A stretch of DNA of 64,000 bases from positions 20,207-84,206 of the forward strand of contig JAQGLW010000083.1 of the NCBI GenBank assembly GCA_028292665.1. The letters run 5' to 3'. The position numbers and the translations under genes were made by a program. Position 1 is the first letter of the stretch. Every line of letters begins with the position of its first letter. This stretch comes from Herminiimonas sp. Lineage in GTDB: Bacteria; Pseudomonadota; Gammaproteobacteria; Burkholderiales; Burkholderiaceae_D. The notes under the pieces were generated by a model. That model made no database searches. It was not told the origin of the DNA and saw nothing but the letters and a program-made list of their open reading frames with translations. Of the stretch, positions 40,553 to 47,878 are shown one piece after another.

Positions 40553-41821
40553 ATGTCGCACTTTTCCTATCGAGACGGCGTGCTATGCGCCGAAAACATG
40601 CCGTTGACTGCGATTGCCAGTCAATTCGGCACGCCCGCCTATGTGTACTCCCGAAAAGCGCTGGTGGAAAATTTTTCTGCCTATGCGGACATGTGCAAGG
40701 GACGCGATGCGCTGGTTTGCTATGCGATGAAAGCCAACTCCAACCTTGCCATTTTGAACCTGCTGGCAAAACACGGCGCCGGTTTCGATCTGGTTTCGGG
40801 TGGCGAATTGCTGCGCGTGATCGCGGCAGGCGGCGATCCGAAAAAATGCCTGTTTTCCGGCGTCGGCAAATCACGCGACGAGATGGCGCTTGCACTGTCG
40901 CACGATATCCTGTGCTTCAATGTCGAATCGATTCCGGAGCTGCATCGACTCAACCAAGTTGCCGGAGAACTCGGCAAGACTGCACCTGTCAGCCTGCGCG
41001 TCAATCCGAACGTCGATGCAAAAACACATCCTTACATAGCCACCGGCCTCAAGGCAAACAAATTCGGCGTTGCATTCGACGATGCGCTCGCAACTTACCG
41101 CACCGCATCGCAGCTGCCTCACATCAACGTGATCGGCATCGATTGCCATATCGGTTCCCAATTGCTGGACGATGCGCCGCTGCTGGAAGCGCTCGATAAA
41201 CTGATCGAGCTGATCGACACATTGGCGCAACAAGGCATTGTCCTGCACCACCTCGATCTCGGCGGCGGCATCGGCATCACATACGACGACGAAAAACCGG
41301 TCGCCGTGCGTGATTATCTGGAACGCGTGTTCGCCAGAATCGATCAATGGCGCAGCACCAGGCATGACGGCGCGCCGATCAAAATCATTTTCGAACCGGG
41401 CCGGTCCGTTGTAGGGAATGCAGGCGTGCTGCTGACGAAAGTGGAATACATCAAGCCCGGCGCAGAAAAGAACTTTTGCATTGTCGATGCCGCGATGAAT
41501 GATCTGATGCGTCCCGCGATGTACCAGGCGTGGATGGGCGTGCAGGAAGTCAGGAAACGAAACGATGCCGCCGTCACCTATGACGTGGTCGGTCCGATAT
41601 GCGAATCCGGTGACTGGCTGGCCCGCGATCGTCAATTGGCAGTGGTGCAGGATGATTTATTGGCGATTGCCAGTGCCGGCGCCTATGGAATGACAATGGC
41701 ATCCAACTACAATACGCGCGGCCGGGCAGTGGAAGTGATGGTCGATGGCGACCGCGCCCATTTGATTCGCAAGCGCGAAGAACCGGGCGATTTATTCGCG
41801 CTGGAATCGATTCCGGCATAA
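40553..41821 (+). CDS. lysA: Diaminopimelate decarboxylase
   Basis: 422-residue PLP enzyme of alanine racemase fold; last step of lysine synthesis. PLP lysine in CYAMKANSNLAIL (K near 62); HIGSQL and the glycine loop DLGGGIGI bind the phosphate; FEPGRSVVGNAGVL binds substrate and cofactor; the Cys of GPICESGDWLA and YGMTMASNYNTRGR are catalytic-site landmarks. Follows lptM by 12 bases, probably co-transcribed. Confidence 0.97.
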   Translation: MSHFSYRDGVLCAENMPLTAIASQFGTPAYVYSRKALVENFSAYADMCKGRDALVCYAMKANSNLAILNLLAKHGAGFDLVSGGELLRVIAAGGDPKKCLFSGVGKSRDEMALALSHDILCFNVESIPELHRLNQVAGELGKTAPVSLRVNPNVDAKTHPYIATGLKANKFGVAFDDALATYRTASQLPHINVIGIDCHIGSQLLDDAPLLEALDKLIELIDTLAQQGIVLHHLDLGGGIGITYDDEKPVAVRDYLERVFARIDQWRSTRHDGAPIKIIFEPGRSVVGNAGVLLTKVEYIKPGAEKNFCIVDAAMNDLMRPAMYQAWMGVQEVRKRNDAAVTYDVVGPICESGDWLARDRQLAVVQDDLLAIASAGAYGMTMASNYNTRGRAVEVMVDGDRAHLIRKREEPGDLFALESIPA

Positions 41822-41971
41822 CGCCCGGATTGCCGGATAGTGACTGACGTAGCCTGAGCCCGGCAATCATTTCTTCGAATCCTGGTCAACCATGACCGTT
41901 GTGCAGACTCGCACTTCCGGGATAGGCGCTTAACCGATATTCCATGGATATATTCATCTTTGGATGTAATA

Positions 41972-41994
41972 TTCGGCATTCGCTTCATGCCGAA
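41972..41994. repeat. Hairpin TTCGGCAT-TCGCTTC-ATGCCGAA upstream of nikR
   Basis: Perfect eight-base arms around a seven-base loop, ending 26 bases before the nikR ATG. A near copy with nine-base arms is at 56638-56663. There is no T-run. It may be a dispersed repeat, an operator or a leader structure. It does not match the NikR operator. Confidence 0.5.
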
Positions 41995-42020
41995 GCGGCA
42001 TCGAATTCAATGTGAAAATC

Positions 42021-42476
42021 ATGCGCCGAATTACTATTTCTGTTGAAGATTCCCTTGCCCAGCAATTCGACGATTTGATTGAACGCCATGGCTATCAAAA
42101 CCGGTCGGAAGCATTCCGGGACCTGGTGCGCGGACGGCTTGAGCAGGAGCGCAAAATCACCTACCAGGTGCGCTATTGCATCGCCAGCCTGAGTTATGTC
42201 TATAACCATCATGAACGCGAGCTGGCCAGTCGGCTGGCGGCACTTCAGCATGAACATCACGACATCTGCGTGTCGAGCATGCATGTGCATCTGGATCATG
42301 ACAACTGCCTCGAAACCATCGTCCTGCGCGGTTTATACAGGCAGGTGAGCGCATTCGCCGACAGCGTGATCGCGCAAAGCGGCGTACGCCACGGCAACGT
42401 CAATGTCGTGCCGGTTGATATGGCCACGCCATCGCTGGCGCAGCATCGTCATCCTCACTTTCATCCCAAGACTTAG
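42021..42476 (+). CDS. nikR: Nickel-responsive regulator NikR
   Basis: 151 residues from MRRITISVEDSL, which aligns with the start of known NikR proteins (a GTG three codons upstream is possible). The ribbon-helix-helix DNA-binding part is at 1-45 (RRITISVEDS, YQNRSEAFRDLVR). The ACT-like metal domain follows. The four nickel ligands of E. coli NikR (His76, His87, His89, Cys95) all have counterparts in the string ALQHEHHD...MHVHLDHDNC. It ends six bases from the end of a TonB receptor gene that runs towards it. No nikABCDE genes are in view. Confidence 0.93.
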   Translation: MRRITISVEDSLAQQFDDLIERHGYQNRSEAFRDLVRGRLEQERKITYQVRYCIASLSYVYNHHERELASRLAALQHEHHDICVSSMHVHLDHDNCLETIVLRGLYRQVSAFADSVIAQSGVRHGNVNVVPVDMATPSLAQHRHPHFHPKT

Positions 42477-42482
42477 AAAAAC

Positions 42483-44570
42483 CTAGAAATTCGCCGTAAG
42501 GGTCAGGCGGAACGAGCGTGACTCGATCGGGTGGAAATGAATGTCTTGCGTCGACGACCCTGGCGGCTCGCTTGCCAGGCGAGAAGCATAATAGTAATCA
42601 ATCGCCGAATCGCTCCTGTTGGTCAGGTTGAAGCCTTCCAGCTCGATGCGCATTTTCGGATTGATCTTGTAGCCGATGCGGCCGTTCAGCGTCGCGGTCG
42701 GCCTGGAACGCACGCTGTTGTCCTCTATCAGCGGGCGCGGACCGAAATATCGCAGCTGCAAGGCGCCGAAATACGGTCCGACGTTATCCACGGCCAGCGC
42801 GACCGAGGCTACGCCTTCGACTGCACCCGGAATGCGGTCACCGACAAGATCGAATTCACGGAAACGCGCCCGCGCAAAAGCCAGATCGGCATCGATCGTC
42901 AGCCATTTGGCGGCCTTGTAATAGTTGTTGAACTCGAAGCCGTAACGGCGGCTGGGCCGGCTGGGCTCGGTGGTGCCCGCATCGCCGGTAAATAGCAATT
43001 CCGAATCGAAGTCCAGCCGGTAGAGCGCAAAGGAGCTCTGCAGGCCGGGAATGATTTCCGTGCGCACGCCCACTTCAAGGCCCTTGGACCGCACCAGCGG
43101 CGTTACCCTGTCAACCGGGCTGCCGGATTTTGGATCAACCGTAATCGTCGTACCGCGTGCATCGTTGCTGTGGAAGCCGCTGCCGATGTTGAAGTAATAC
43201 TCCGTCTTGGCCCAGGGGCCGAAGATGAGGCTCAGCTTGGGGCTGATGATATTGTCGCTGGCTTTGCCCGAGTTGGCCGGGTTGTCGCTGTTGACGTCAA
43301 ACCGGTAGTAGTCGCCGCGCACACCGGCGACGGTCCTGAACTTGTCCGTCCATTCGGTCCTGTTTTCGAAATACGCGCCCGCGCTGCTTTCGACGATGTG
43401 GTCTTCACGAGTGGTCGAGAGTATTTGCCGCGCCGCGGTGCTGAACAGGCCGTTGAAGATATTGTCATTCTGAAGTTGCAGGCCGACCGTGTTTTCCGAC
43501 TGCCGGCCCAACCAAGGCCCGCGCCAGCTGTGGCTCATGTTGATGCCGGTGGTGGTGCGCCTGTCGGGCTGGGCAAACTGGTCGCCATTGACCGGATCGT
43601 TCAGAAAGTAGGTGAAATTGGAAAACAGGTCCAGCTTGTTGTGGATGACGTAGGCATTGATATCGCTGGAGGACTCCGCCGTGCTCTTGTGCCATGCCGC
43701 CGACAGGCTGTAACGATGCGACTGGCCGCCATCGGTGGGATCGATCGCATCGAAACGGCCCAGCAAGCCGCTGTCCACCGCCCGCTGTGGAATCTGGTCA
43801 GTGGCATTCCACTTGGCGCGATACGCCATGGCCGTGACATTGAAGCCGTTGGCGGCGTTGCCTTCGCTATAACGCAAGACGCCATTGAGTTTGCTATAGT
43901 CGTCCGGATGCGTGAACGGCCCGTCGTTATGGAACAGTTCCAGCGCATACAGGAGGTTGCCATTGCCCACCTTGGGTGAATCGGCCAGCAGGGTGCGCAG
44001 GAAGCCGTTCTGTCCGAAACCGACACTGGCAATGCCCTGCTCCAGTTTGTCCGCATACAGCACACTCGCTGTTCCTGCGGATGCAAAATCGCCTTCAGCG
44101 GCATAATACGGGCCTTTTTTGTATTCGAGTCTCGCAGCCAATTCCGGAATGAGGAAATTGAGATCGGTCCAGCCCTGCCCATGTCCGTGGCTTCGCTGGT
44201 TAACCAGCATGCCGTCGACAGTCGTTCGCAAGTCGGTGCCGTGATCGAGGTTAAATCCGCGCAAGTAAAACTGATTGGCCTTTCCTTCGCCGCTATGCTG
44301 GCTGACGATCAGGCCGGGTGTTGCTTCCAGCAGTTCGCCGGCGCGGTAGACGGTGCGTGCCTCGAGCTGCTTTTGCGTCACGACTCCGGCATTGGCGGAA
44401 TCGGCGATGCCCATTTGACTGTTGCGGGAAGTCTCGACAACGACGGCATCGAGCGATTTTTCTTCGTCCGCCGCCCAGGCCGACGGGTTGGCGATGGATA
44501 AACCGAGAAGCGAGGCTACCAGTGTTTTAAGTCTTGATTTTTGCTGTGTTGCCTTTGTTGCCTGTCTCAT
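42483..44570 (-). CDS. TonB-dependent outer-membrane receptor, predicted nickel-linked
   Basis: 695 residues. A signal peptide ends at PSAWAADEE; the TonB box region is probably LDAVVVE. The plug domain has LLEATPGLIVSQHSGEGKANQFYLRGFNLDHGTDL and the His-containing RSHGHGQGWTDLNFLIPE, followed by a 22-strand-type beta barrel ending in the aromatic Phe (LTLTANF). The substrate is not readable from the barrel itself. It is linked to nickel by the adjacent nikR gene and by a NikR-like operator 77 bases upstream of the start. Alternative substrates include other metal chelates. Confidence 0.9.
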   Translation of the reverse strand: MRQATKATQQKSRLKTLVASLLGLSIANPSAWAADEEKSLDAVVVETSRNSQMGIADSANAGVVTQKQLEARTVYRAGELLEATPGLIVSQHSGEGKANQFYLRGFNLDHGTDLRTTVDGMLVNQRSHGHGQGWTDLNFLIPELAARLEYKKGPYYAAEGDFASAGTASVLYADKLEQGIASVGFGQNGFLRTLLADSPKVGNGNLLYALELFHNDGPFTHPDDYSKLNGVLRYSEGNAANGFNVTAMAYRAKWNATDQIPQRAVDSGLLGRFDAIDPTDGGQSHRYSLSAAWHKSTAESSSDINAYVIHNKLDLFSNFTYFLNDPVNGDQFAQPDRRTTTGINMSHSWRGPWLGRQSENTVGLQLQNDNIFNGLFSTAARQILSTTREDHIVESSAGAYFENRTEWTDKFRTVAGVRGDYYRFDVNSDNPANSGKASDNIISPKLSLIFGPWAKTEYYFNIGSGFHSNDARGTTITVDPKSGSPVDRVTPLVRSKGLEVGVRTEIIPGLQSSFALYRLDFDSELLFTGDAGTTEPSRPSRRYGFEFNNYYKAAKWLTIDADLAFARARFREFDLVGDRIPGAVEGVASVALAVDNVGPYFGALQLRYFGPRPLIEDNSVRSRPTATLNGRIGYKINPKMRIELEGFNLTNRSDSAIDYYYASRLASEPPGSSTQDIHFHPIESRSFRLTLTANF

Positions 44571-44646
44571 CGAGTTTTAATAATGAAGGCCATAGCGGCA
44601 TGGATTTTTTTGAAAGCGGGAATCCATAAAAATTACTGAACATTGA

Positions 44647-44673
44647 GTATGAATAATAATATATTCTTCATAC
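44647..44673 (-). promoter_or_regulatory. NikR-like operator GTATGA-N15-TCATAC upstream of the TonB receptor
   Basis: GTATGA at 44647-44652 and TCATAC at 44668-44673 form perfectly inverted half-sites, and the 15-base A/T-rich spacer is itself largely palindromic. The E. coli nik operator is GTATGA-N16-TCATAC, so half-sites are identical and the spacer one base shorter. On the minus strand a possible promoter (TTGTAT as -35, CATACT as -10) coincides with the two half-sites, which would allow direct repression by nickel-bound NikR. Confidence 0.7.
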
Positions 44674-44711
44674 AAAGGCAACGGTACTCCACCCAAAAGC
44701 ATCCAATGCCC

Positions 44712-44757
44712 GACTGCAGATTGCGATCTACCGAAAGGCGGATCGCAATCTGCAGTC
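44712..44757. repeat. 17-base perfect stem-loop between msrQ and the TonB receptor
   Basis: Arms GACTGCAGATTGCGATC and GATCGCAATCTGCAGTC flank the 12-base loop TACCGAAAGGCG. It is a very stable hairpin in either direction, but neither side ends in a T-run. It lies between the msrQ 3' end and the NikR-like operator. It may insulate the two units or protect the 3' end of the msrPQ message. Confidence 0.7.
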
Positions 44758-44858
44758 AAGCATCAACACGATGGGGATAATCAAGCGTGGCTGTCAGCCA
44801 AGCCTCGGGCTGGCTTGCCGCCGTTGAGTCCGTTGCGCCAGTCGCCAATAAACGCGCG

Positions 44859-45479
44859 TCAATAACAGGATCGCACGATTGTTCCGAACAGGATCGGCTG
44901 CGAAAAGTTGTGCTTGCCCGCCTTCATCCACCAGAAGTGCAATATGCCGAGCGGCGCGATAATGTAAATCGCACGATGCAGCCACTGCCAGCGCCTGCCG
45001 CCCAATCGCCTTACCATGCCATTGGTACTCGTCGCTGCGAGTGGGATCAATAGAATGAATGCGATGAAACCGACCGTGATGAAGGGACGTTTGACGACGT
45101 CTTTCCACATCTCCTGCAGATCAAAAAAATGATCGAACCAAAGGAAGGTCGTGAAATGCAGCGTGGCGTAAAAGAAAGCGAATAATCCGATCATGCGGCG
45201 CAGCTTGAGCAGCCAGTTCCATTTGCTCAGCCGACGCAATGGGGTCACCGCCAACGTAATGCACAGAAAATAAAGCGTCCAGTCGCCGGTATTGCGCGTG
45301 ATGAACTCGATCGGATTGGCGCCCAGCCGGTCGGTGAAAGTAAAAAGCACCAAGCGGGCAAAAGGCAGCAAGGCTGCGGCAAATAGCGCAGCTTTGAGAA
45401 GGGCGAACTGTTTTGGAGCAGGATTGAACATGCCGACATTGCCGAGAACGTGAGACGAAATTCCGGCCTTCGCATTCAT
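44859..45479 (-). CDS. msrQ: MsrQ, heme-binding membrane subunit of MsrPQ (C-terminus apparently frameshifted)
   Basis: 206-residue membrane protein that passes electrons to MsrP for repair of oxidised methionines in the periplasm. It shows the ferric-reductase-like helices ATLHFTTFLWFDHFF and RWQWLHRAIYIIAPLGILHFWW with conserved heme histidines. The frame ends abruptly in TIVRSCY. If one G is restored around 44872-44876 (GTGCGATCC read as GTGGCGATCC), it continues with a plausible last helix, VAILLLTRVYWRL, and a basic tail to a stop at 44794. A one-base deletion or a sequencing error is therefore likely. It follows msrP after 76 bases. Confidence 0.88.
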   Translation of the reverse strand: MNAKAGISSHVLGNVGMFNPAPKQFALLKAALFAAALLPFARLVLFTFTDRLGANPIEFITRNTGDWTLYFLCITLAVTPLRRLSKWNWLLKLRRMIGLFAFFYATLHFTTFLWFDHFFDLQEMWKDVVKRPFITVGFIAFILLIPLAATSTNGMVRRLGGRRWQWLHRAIYIIAPLGILHFWWMKAGKHNFSQPILFGTIVRSCY

Positions 45480-45555
45480 CTGGATTCGAAGACCGGAATG
45501 ACGGTTGATCGATACGGCCCTTAACCAGTGCCAGAGCCGACAGCGCTTTTAATCG

Positions 45556-46536
45556 TTAGAAAAACTTTTTCATGTCCATACCCTTGTATAACGATGCAAC
45601 GTCGTTATAGCCATTGAACATCAGGGTCTTGCGCTTTTTCGTGAACAGGCCGTCTTCGCCGATGCGGCGTTCGCTTGCCTGCGACCAGCGCGGATGATCG
45701 ACTGCAGGATTCACATTGGAATAAAACCCGTATTCCTGCGGCGCCGCGATGTTCCATGCCGTTCTGGGCTGATCTTTGGTGAAGCGGATTTTGACGATTG
45801 ACTTGGCGGATTTGAAACCGTATTTCCACGGCACCACGATCCGTACCGGCGCACCATTCTGGTTTGGCAGCACTTCGCCATACATGCCTACGCTCAACAG
45901 CGTCAGCGGATGATTTGCTTCATCGAGCCGCAAGCCTTCCACATACGGCCATTCCAGCACAGGACTGCCGATGCCCGGCATCTGCTTCTTGTCCGCCAGC
46001 GAAATGAATTCGACATATTTCGCATTGCCGGTCGGTTCGACTTTTTTGATCAGCTCGGCCAGCGAATAGCCGATCCACGGAATGACCATCGACCAGCCTT
46101 CGACGCAACGCAGCCGGTAGATACGCTCTTCCAGCGGCGCCAGTTTCAACAGGCTGTCGATGTCGAGCGTCATTGGTTTTTTGACTTCGCCTTCGATTGC
46201 CACCGTCCATGGACGGGGCTTCAGCGTGCCGGCATATTCAGCCGGATCGGCTTTATCGGTGCCGAATTCATAGAAATTATTGTAGGTCGTCGCATCCTTG
46301 TATGCCGTCGTTTTATCCATCACCACATAGGCAGGATTGGCTTTGGCGGCCAACTTGTGCGCGGAGGCCGATTGGGCGAATGCCTGCCGGGAAGCCATGT
46401 CGAACAATGCGCCGCCGGCAATCGAACCGACTGCCAATTGCCTGATGAAGGTACGGCGCGATTCGAATATTTCGCGCGGAGTGATTTCCGACGCGAAGGG
46501 AAGATCTATCCCGTTTGGATTACGTTTAATCAGCAT
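45556..46536 (-). CDS. msrP: MsrP, periplasmic protein-methionine-sulfoxide reductase catalytic subunit
   Basis: 326-residue molybdoenzyme of the sulfite oxidase fold (formerly YedY). The twin-arginine signal is [17 protein letters not shown] near residues 27-42, so it is exported folded. The molybdenum-ligand cysteine is Cys144 in [10 protein letters not shown], followed by [13 protein letters not shown]. The sequence ends with the family-typical [17 protein letters not shown]. Works with MsrQ. Upstream on the same strand are an anti-sigma factor and an ECF sigma factor. Intact and full length. Confidence 0.96.
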
Positions 46537-46605
46537 GAATACTCCGTAATGTGAACTGCATGAATCCTTTGTCTTTTGGACTACGGGAACCTTACACCAA
46601 TCTGA

Positions 46606-47358
46606 TTAGCGCCGCAGTTGGCCGTCGACTGCATGCGCCACCGCCAGCAGCCGTGCCCGATCCATGCCGCCGGACAACGCATAGCCATAATCGCGGTCTA
46701 TCCAGTAAAACACGCGCGTCCCATTCTGCTCCAGCACCTTGAACCCGGTATTGGACTGCTGTTGCGCCGCATGTTTAACGGTCAGCGTCAATCGCTCGCC
46801 GTCCGGCGACTGGTACATCAATTGCGCCAACGGCCCGTCATTGCCCGGCAACAGGCGTCCGCCCAGCAGCGAAAAACCTTGCGGCTGGAGGTCGGGAGCG
46901 TGGATCGGGACATCGAGCCGTTTGGATAACCATGCGACCAGGTGCGCTTCCTGCTCCGCCGGAACTTCGACCGGATGCCGCTGATCGGCCGCGTACAGCA
47001 CATAGGCGGCCAGCGCGTCTTTTGCGAAAACAGCCGCGGCAGGCGCCGGTAATGGCGCCGGCATGTGCGCAAACCAGCCCGCCACCAAGCCGCATGTCAG
47101 CCAGGCCAGACCGGCGGCGAGTCCGCGCGGCCATGGCCGCGTCTGCAGCGTATTCGTCAATCGAAGCGGCACCGGTTCATTCAACACAGCGTCATAACTG
47201 CCGTGCAGCGCATGCATTTGCGCACGCAAGTCATGAACCTGTGCGGCGGCTTCGGGGTGAGCGGCCAGATGTGCTTCGACTTCAGCCCGGCGCGCTGCAT
47301 CGAGCTGCCCATCGACATAAGCATGCAAGTCCAGTTCGCTTATCGAAGAAATCGTCAT
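46606..47358 (-). CDS. Anti-sigma factor (RsiW-like membrane regulator)
   Basis: 250 residues. The N-terminal anti-sigma domain is ELDLHAYVDGQLDAARRAEVEAHLAAHPEAAAQV (residues 8-41 region). It lacks the full His-Cys-Cys zinc motif of ZAS domains, with no CxxC. A single transmembrane helix (about 79-100, GLAAGLAWLTCGLVAGWF) is followed by a periplasmic domain of about 150 residues. It starts one base after the sigma factor stop, the usual pairing in which the membrane protein holds its cognate sigma factor until a signal arrives. Located directly upstream of msrP. Confidence 0.88.
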   Translation of the reverse strand: MTISSISELDLHAYVDGQLDAARRAEVEAHLAAHPEAAAQVHDLRAQMHALHGSYDAVLNEPVPLRLTNTLQTRPWPRGLAAGLAWLTCGLVAGWFAHMPAPLPAPAAAVFAKDALAAYVLYAADQRHPVEVPAEQEAHLVAWLSKRLDVPIHAPDLQPQGFSLLGGRLLPGNDGPLAQLMYQSPDGERLTLTVKHAAQQQSNTGFKVLEQNGTRVFYWIDRDYGYALSGGMDRARLLAVAHAVDGQLRR

Positions 47359-47359
47359 C

Positions 47360-47878
47360 TCACTTGATCCGGGTTAAATGCGCAGACGTTGCAGTCGCAG
47401 CCGATGCCGCCGAAGGCGAATCCGACAGCAAGGTCCTTAATTGTTCGCGCGCACGCGCCAATCGCGACATCACGGTGCCGAGCGGAACATTGAGCACGTC
47501 GGCAGCTTCCTTATAGCTTAATTGCTCCAGGCCGATCAGCACGATGACGGCGCGATGCTCGGGACTGAGTCTGGCCAGCGCGCGCTTCATGTCTATCTGC
47601 AGCGCCATATCGCCTGACGCGACAGGCTCCGGCGCATCGTCTTCAGCCACGGCCAACGCGACATGATGGCGCGATGCGTCATTCAGATACAGGCGGTACA
47701 GCATGGTAAACAACCACGCCGTCAGATTGCCGTACCGGAACAGCCAGCGACGCTGGAGCGCGCGCTCCAGCGTATCCTGCACCAGATCATCCGCCCAGGC
47801 GGCATTGTGTGCGAGCGCACGTGCGTAACGTCGCAAGCGCGGAATCTGCAAGGCCAATGCCTGAGCGAAATCGGACAT
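47360..47878 (-). CDS. ECF-type RNA polymerase sigma factor
   Basis: 172 residues with sigma-70 region 2 (HNAAWADDLVQDTLERALQRRWLFR, then LTAWLFTMLYRLYLND) and region 4 (LSPEHRAVIVLIGLEQLSYKEAADVLNVPLGTVMSRLARARE, named here by its ends). No region 1 or 3, as in extracytoplasmic-function factors. A 17-base gap separates it from the upstream secreted-protein gene, and a 1-base gap from the downstream anti-sigma gene. Its target genes are unknown; msrPQ and its own operon are the natural candidates. Confidence 0.93.
   Translation of the reverse strand: MSDFAQALALQIPRLRRYARALAHNAAWADDLVQDTLERALQRRWLFRYGNLTAWLFTMLYRLYLNDASRHHVALAVAEDDAPEPVASGDMALQIDMKRALARLSPEHRAVIVLIGLEQLSYKEAADVLNVPLGTVMSRLARAREQLRTLLSDSPSAASAATATSAHLTRIK

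Follow-up and report, generated by a model that had tools for sequence, protein, structure and literature searches.

A gene for a TonB-dependent outer-membrane receptor and a gene for the nickel-sensing repressor NikR lie side by side in a Herminiimonas genome, raising the questions of whether NikR controls the receptor and whether the receptor carries nickel. The window, a 64,000-nucleotide stretch of contig JAQGLW010000083.1, contains both genes together with a putative promoter and a palindrome (hereafter the box; Table 1). An earlier note on this DNA had proposed that nickel is taken up across the outer membrane and that NikR switches this uptake off once the metal is abundant. The comparisons described here support that reading, as box and NikR go together throughout the receptor family. 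The receptor gene is probably repressed by nickel-loaded NikR acting at a predicted 27-bp operator, and its product would import nickel, probably in chelated form; NikR binding, the direction of control, the substrate, its chelate and the inner-membrane partner are what we infer from sequence comparison.

Table 1. Features of the nikR–receptor region (window coordinates).
Feature	Coordinates	Strand	Basis
nikR, 151 aa, ribbon-helix-helix + NikR_C	42021..42476	+	domain and equivalog models
TonB-dependent outer-membrane receptor (695 aa), putatively for nickel	42483..44570	-	PF07715 + PF00593
Predicted NikR operator, 27-bp palindrome GTATGA-N15-TCATAC	44647..44673	.	pattern search; conserved with NikR
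Predicted receptor promoter TTGCCT-17-TATTAT	44653..44681	-	consensus scan

The nikR gene is intact and its product contains an N-terminal ribbon-helix-helix domain (PF01402, 32.4 bits) and a NikR_C domain (PF08753, 103.5 bits). It passes two NCBIfam NikR equivalog models (NF002815, 194.8 against 83 bits; NF003381, 147.2 against 105) and falls below the cut-off of TIGR02793 (154.1 against 175.45). Residues H77, H88, H90 and C96 align with H76, H87, H89 and C95 of E. coli NikR, which we take to be its nickel ligands, and the earlier description of a NikR with all four ligands is borne out on this basis. Arg3 and Thr5, presumably residues of the DNA-reading strand, are kept, and in the same alignment E. 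coli Thr7 is replaced by Ser and K64, which we assume to be a DNA contact, by Glu. The C-terminal tail is His-rich (H142, H144, H146 and H148; window 42444–42464) and extends past the aligned end of E. coli NikR. As the earlier note had it, nikR lies directly downstream of the receptor gene and tail-to-tail with it, the two convergent genes having stop codons 6 bases apart.

The receptor has both domains of a TonB-dependent receptor, a Plug (PF07715, 53.6 bits) and a beta-barrel (PF00593, 94.6 bits), and its AlphaFold2 model has a pLDDT of 82.5 and a pTM of 0.82, with residues 1–58 scoring below 50. The best Foldseek matches of the model are PqqU/YncD, FoxA and FecA, and a PDB profile search places PqqU/YncD and BtuB, which are not nickel receptors, as the nearest solved relatives; the PqqU/YncD matches say little about cargo. 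The plug contains an HxHGQG motif that is common to 21 aligned relatives, among which five histidines are invariant (H92, H110, H130, H467 and H680). A database search returned at least 7,998 matches, and most of the 120 listed lack a specific name, with a few called 'outer membrane cobalamin receptor' or 'Fe transport'. These names and the nearest solved relatives favor an alternative in which NikR controls the receptor and its main cargo is cobalt, cobalamin, iron, or some other ligand or metal–peptide complex. We regard this as unlikely, since a repressor that senses nickel would be ill suited to gauging the supply of a different cargo, and the gene neighborhoods described below bear on it further.

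Within the window, the pattern GTATGA-N{10,20}-TCATAC matches nowhere but at the box (GTATGAATAATAATATATTCTTCATAC), and it is found in none of 100 dinucleotide-shuffled versions, confirming the earlier observation of this palindrome before the receptor gene; the receptor start codon lies 77–103 bases downstream. All 12 half-site letters agree with the E. coli NikR operator (PMC7055735), again as claimed, and the spacer is 15 bases rather than the 16 of an E. coli-type operator. A search of the whole genome for exact half-sites with spacers of 13–18 identified one other match (C126:6008, N16), which forms the core of a longer intergenic hairpin (AAAACGTATGAATT...AATTCATACGTTTT) and is therefore read as a terminator; with its A-rich and T-rich ends it was rejected as a further NikR target. 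No Rfam families are found at 41800–45600.

Of the sigma-70-like sites on the receptor strand, the best has a -35 hexamer TTGCCT (44681–44676) and a -10 hexamer TATTAT (44658–44653), a weak call because the scan yields two sites where 1.9 are expected by chance. The box spans the predicted -10 and most of the promoter spacer and stops 2 bases before the predicted -35, such that the earlier statement that it overlaps both elements holds for the -10, which is inside the box, and fails for the -35. Between msrQ and the box is an inverted repeat (44706–44763) with 23-base arms that are 91% complementary and 12 bases apart, whose 17-base core has no second copy in the window and which may terminate msrPQ transcription. 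Farther upstream of the box (44859–47878) are msrQ and msrP followed by genes for an anti-sigma-like protein and an ECF-type sigma factor, all ordinary by domain content.

Conservation of the box was followed in a first set of 60 genomes, the host included, each searched for the receptor and for NikR. The receptor was found at 28 places scoring above 500 bits and 22 of these were used, 10 in genomes with NikR and 12 in genomes without it; those left out are G024, whose reading frame is broken close to the end of a contig, and five second copies for which there was no locus (in G002, G004, G010, G017 and G035). When a box is defined as at least 10 of the 12 half-site letters with a 15-base spacer upstream of the receptor, it is present at all 10 receptors with NikR compared with one of the 12 without (Fisher 3.4e-5, kinship ignored), the single NikR-less case being G008, whose genome is 80% complete. 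Any other spacer from 8 to 22 is seen at no more than one of the 10 receptors in NikR genomes. The doubt raised by a spacer one base short of the E. coli length is thus largely removed, the N15 form recurring in all 10 genomes that have both genes, and the 15-base spacer is probably not a defect. Conservation before orthologous receptors, which the earlier note had set as a test, is likewise found where NikR is present.

The evidence in the first set is collective rather than per-site, as six of the 10 boxes fall short of significance when taken one by one (their scores are reached in 4 to 23 of 100 shuffles). Two permuted control motifs occur at no more than 1/10 and 1/11 receptors in the NikR sets, and one of them at 5/68 named receptors without linked NikR (at N17). 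An 'everted' control motif reaches 3/10 at N18, which is unexplained, and a 'reversed' one reaches 5/10 and 5/11 at N17 because, wherever A and T border those sites, most of its letters coincide with theirs. The exact GTATGA/TCATAC pattern is also present in 7 of 44 NikR-less relatives, and the half-site conservation of 24 tallied sites arises partly by construction because these were picked for a good match.

A second set consists of the best 80 of at least 584 confirmed receptor loci in named genomes. Eleven of these 80 have nikR within 6 kb and nine of the eleven have an N15 box; the remaining two have N15 sites that match less well, with 9 letters in L072, and in L129 with 9 letters near the receptor start and 10 letters farther upstream. 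Among the 69 named loci without a linked nikR, 68 were used (L132 was dropped for its short upstream region) and two of these, again from the best 80 of at least 584, have the box (L065 and L070). A genome-wide search of 49 of the 69 identified NikR in five, including both box carriers. The genome-wide NikR status is thus known for 60 of the 80 loci (L085 is among the other 20), and within these the box is present in 11 of 16 with NikR compared with 0 of 44 without. The two sets are not to be summed because at least one genome is common to both.

In a receptor tree of 81 members (a quick tree under a simple model, with the duplicate L084 removed), 21 receptors have both box and NikR, 54 have neither, five have NikR only and one has the box only, so the two agree in 75 and disagree in six. 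Put another way, a box of at least 10 letters is missing from 5 of the 26 receptors in NikR genomes, and 55 of the 81 are in genomes in which NikR was not found. Each trait requires 13 changes on the tree. In 10 independent pairs differing in the box, NikR changes with it in a mean of 6.5 and never against it (sign test, median p 0.016, range 0.016–0.125), and in nine independent pairs differing in NikR the box follows in 5.4 on average and is never opposed.

These joint changes bear on whether the box could serve a different regulator, or no regulator at all, its proximity to nikR being chance. The background does lend this some weight: a class-wide scan for GTATGA-N13-18-TCATAC has matches in at least 110 of 369 genomes, including a recurrent N16 match that is probably coding sequence, and by hand counts bare palindromes are present in at least 91 of 328 NikR-less genomes and at least 19 of 41 with NikR (Fisher 0.018), a weak contrast. 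Set against this, agreement with NikR in 75 of 81 receptors, joint changes on the tree, half-sites identical to those of the E. coli operator (PMC7055735) and retention of the two DNA-reading residues make this alternative very improbable. The consensus sites of Zur and Fur, and a third consensus, match none of 63 regions upstream of receptors without known NikR. Within 1.5 kb on either side of nikR at 15 class loci, with NikR at least 50% identical, strong boxes are scarce: three N15 sites of at least 11 letters, all at one locus. The idea that spacer length goes with NikR clade was dropped, since G054 combines an N16 site with a NikR 57% identical to that of the window, and G408 an N15 site with one 32% identical.

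Gene order supports the control of the receptor by NikR. Sixteen genomes of the first set, host included, have NikR and 10 of these have the receptor, with the two genes adjacent in nine: tail-to-tail in G000, G022, G030 and G032, head-to-head in G050 and G057, and co-oriented in G009, G034 and G049. In the tenth (G007) they are on separate contigs and two N15 sites precede the receptor. An exact N15 box precedes a tonB-exbB-exbD-receptor-nikR array in G228, and an N15 box (11/12) is located before a gene for a HoxN-type nickel permease in G025, with nikR convergent behind it; an N16 site in G054 precedes a DUF4198 gene followed by CbiM-like genes below model cut-offs. In a Nitrosomonas genome (L097) the receptor and nikR are flanked on one side by a ZnuA-type ABC importer and on the other by a urea transporter accompanied by urease genes; the importer, transporter and UreG were identified by domain scans, and the urease subunits, as well as the Nitrosospira locus L101, were recognized by reading. 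A Sulfuricella locus (L110) encodes the large subunit of a [NiFe] hydrogenase, and a tonB gene comes after the receptor gene in L068 and L128. The receptor, box and NikR are tied to nickel because their neighbors include urease, [NiFe] hydrogenase, HoxN, HupE/UreJ and TonB-ExbBD.

Other boxes are situated away from this receptor. An exact N15 box is located 119 bases before ureD of the urease operon in G049 (L152:14755–14781), ~7 kb from nikR, and NikR may also control urease there. In G053 (L158:1930–5908) a FecCD-type ABC permease gene has an exact N15 box at its 5′ end and is followed at some distance by a gene for a periplasmic binding protein; together they may encode an ABC importer that takes up a nickel chelate under the control of NikR. 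N15 boxes are also near a short Cys-rich open reading frame and a TonB gene in G080 (L191:1242–5216) and G336 (L193:4053–5942), followed in G080 by a TonB receptor of another kind; NikR may therefore control more than one type of receptor. A urease operon is a place where activation by nickel would make sense, and the G049 box is what favors a reading in which NikR activates the receptor gene upon nickel rather than repressing it; for the receptor this is the least probable of the readings considered, as a box over the predicted -10 is in a position for repression and an uptake receptor made in plentiful nickel would be wasteful.

Loci without a linked NikR have different company. Receptor genes follow M1-peptidase genes, often with DUF6702, in Massilia, Duganella, Janthinobacterium and their kin (L073:3123–8028 and 19 other loci). 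Among the best 80 of at least 584 named loci, members of the M1-peptidase cluster are near the receptor in 20, of the DUF6702 cluster in 14 and of a HupE/UreJ_2 cluster in seven, none of them with a linked NikR (one member of each cluster was domain-scanned). The first two of these associations add to the case for another cargo, as does the ability of the NicO and HupE/UreJ families to carry cobalt as well as nickel, but the box or the nikR–receptor pair is beside urease, [NiFe] hydrogenase or HoxN genes in relatives. In G011, an 85% identical receptor without NikR or the box is in the order hupE-tonB-exbB-exbD-receptor. We read these loci as probably having the same nickel cargo under other control, or possibly another chelate or metal. 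With somewhat less than even confidence we suggest that the whole HxHGQG-plug family are outer-membrane nickel receptors whose database names are wrong, and that NikR with the 27-bp box is a detachable module, gained or lost several times while the cargo stays constant.

In the host genome, nickel import by a NikR-repressed receptor would proceed as follows. When nickel is scarce NikR would be off the box and the receptor would be made; TonB-ExbBD would power the passage of nickel through it into the periplasm, and an inner-membrane permease would finish import. Candidates for the permease are a NicO-family protein on contig C104 (67.6 bits against the Pfam cut-off of 27.7, and far below that of the HoxN model) and a HupE/UreJ_2 protein on contig C56; no N15 box of at least 10 letters is present in the stretches read near either gene. 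The imported nickel would feed mainly the urease encoded on contig C132, the likely main consumer, and plentiful nickel would lead NikR to close the receptor promoter. One N15 match of at least 10 letters is near the urease genes, inside ureC. A search of the host genome for [NiFe] hydrogenase gave no match, and one for NikA gave eight, none above the cut-off.

What began as a guess from one genome is now a comparison of 81 receptors in which box, gene order and shared gain and loss tie the receptor to NikR. If the reading is correct, a likely substrate can be assigned to a large family of outer-membrane receptors most of which have no specific name, and nickel supply across the outer membrane becomes a testable step in urease-using soil bacteria and ammonia oxidizers.

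Nickel TonB receptors of the Betaproteobacteria and NikR sites of 27–28 bp are both already in print. Daro_3944, Rgel01002199 and Bll6948 are predicted nickel TonB receptors of Proteobacteria, two of them Betaproteobacterial; TonB receptors are named as nickel transporters in PMC11247825 and are predicted or clustered as such in PMC3400609 and PMC7142613, the latter crediting Rodionov et al. 2006. The receptor of Dechloromonas sp. H13 (L129) is 52% identical to the window receptor. No publication on the N15 box of this receptor or on its joint gain and loss with NikR was recognized in a literature search that covered few subscription journals. The E. coli nikABCDE operator, GTATGA-N16-TCATAC, has the same half-sites as the window box (PMC7055735), but has a 16-base spacer and an ABC importer as its target, whereas the window box has a 15-base spacer and a receptor as its target; the enterobacterial consensus GTATGAT-[N13/14]-ATCATAC, 27–28 bp (PMC545781), covers the N15 spacing. 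The window receptor can be likened to FrpB4 and FecA3 of Helicobacter pylori, outer-membrane receptors whose genes are NikR-repressed according to the titles of references. As expected of a receptor of that kind, it has a predicted NikR site in its promoter region that is conserved with NikR. The NikR sites of H. pylori have different half-sites. The placement of the window receptor in a known, mostly predicted, kind is well supported by these sequence comparisons, at a level now far above that of a single genome.
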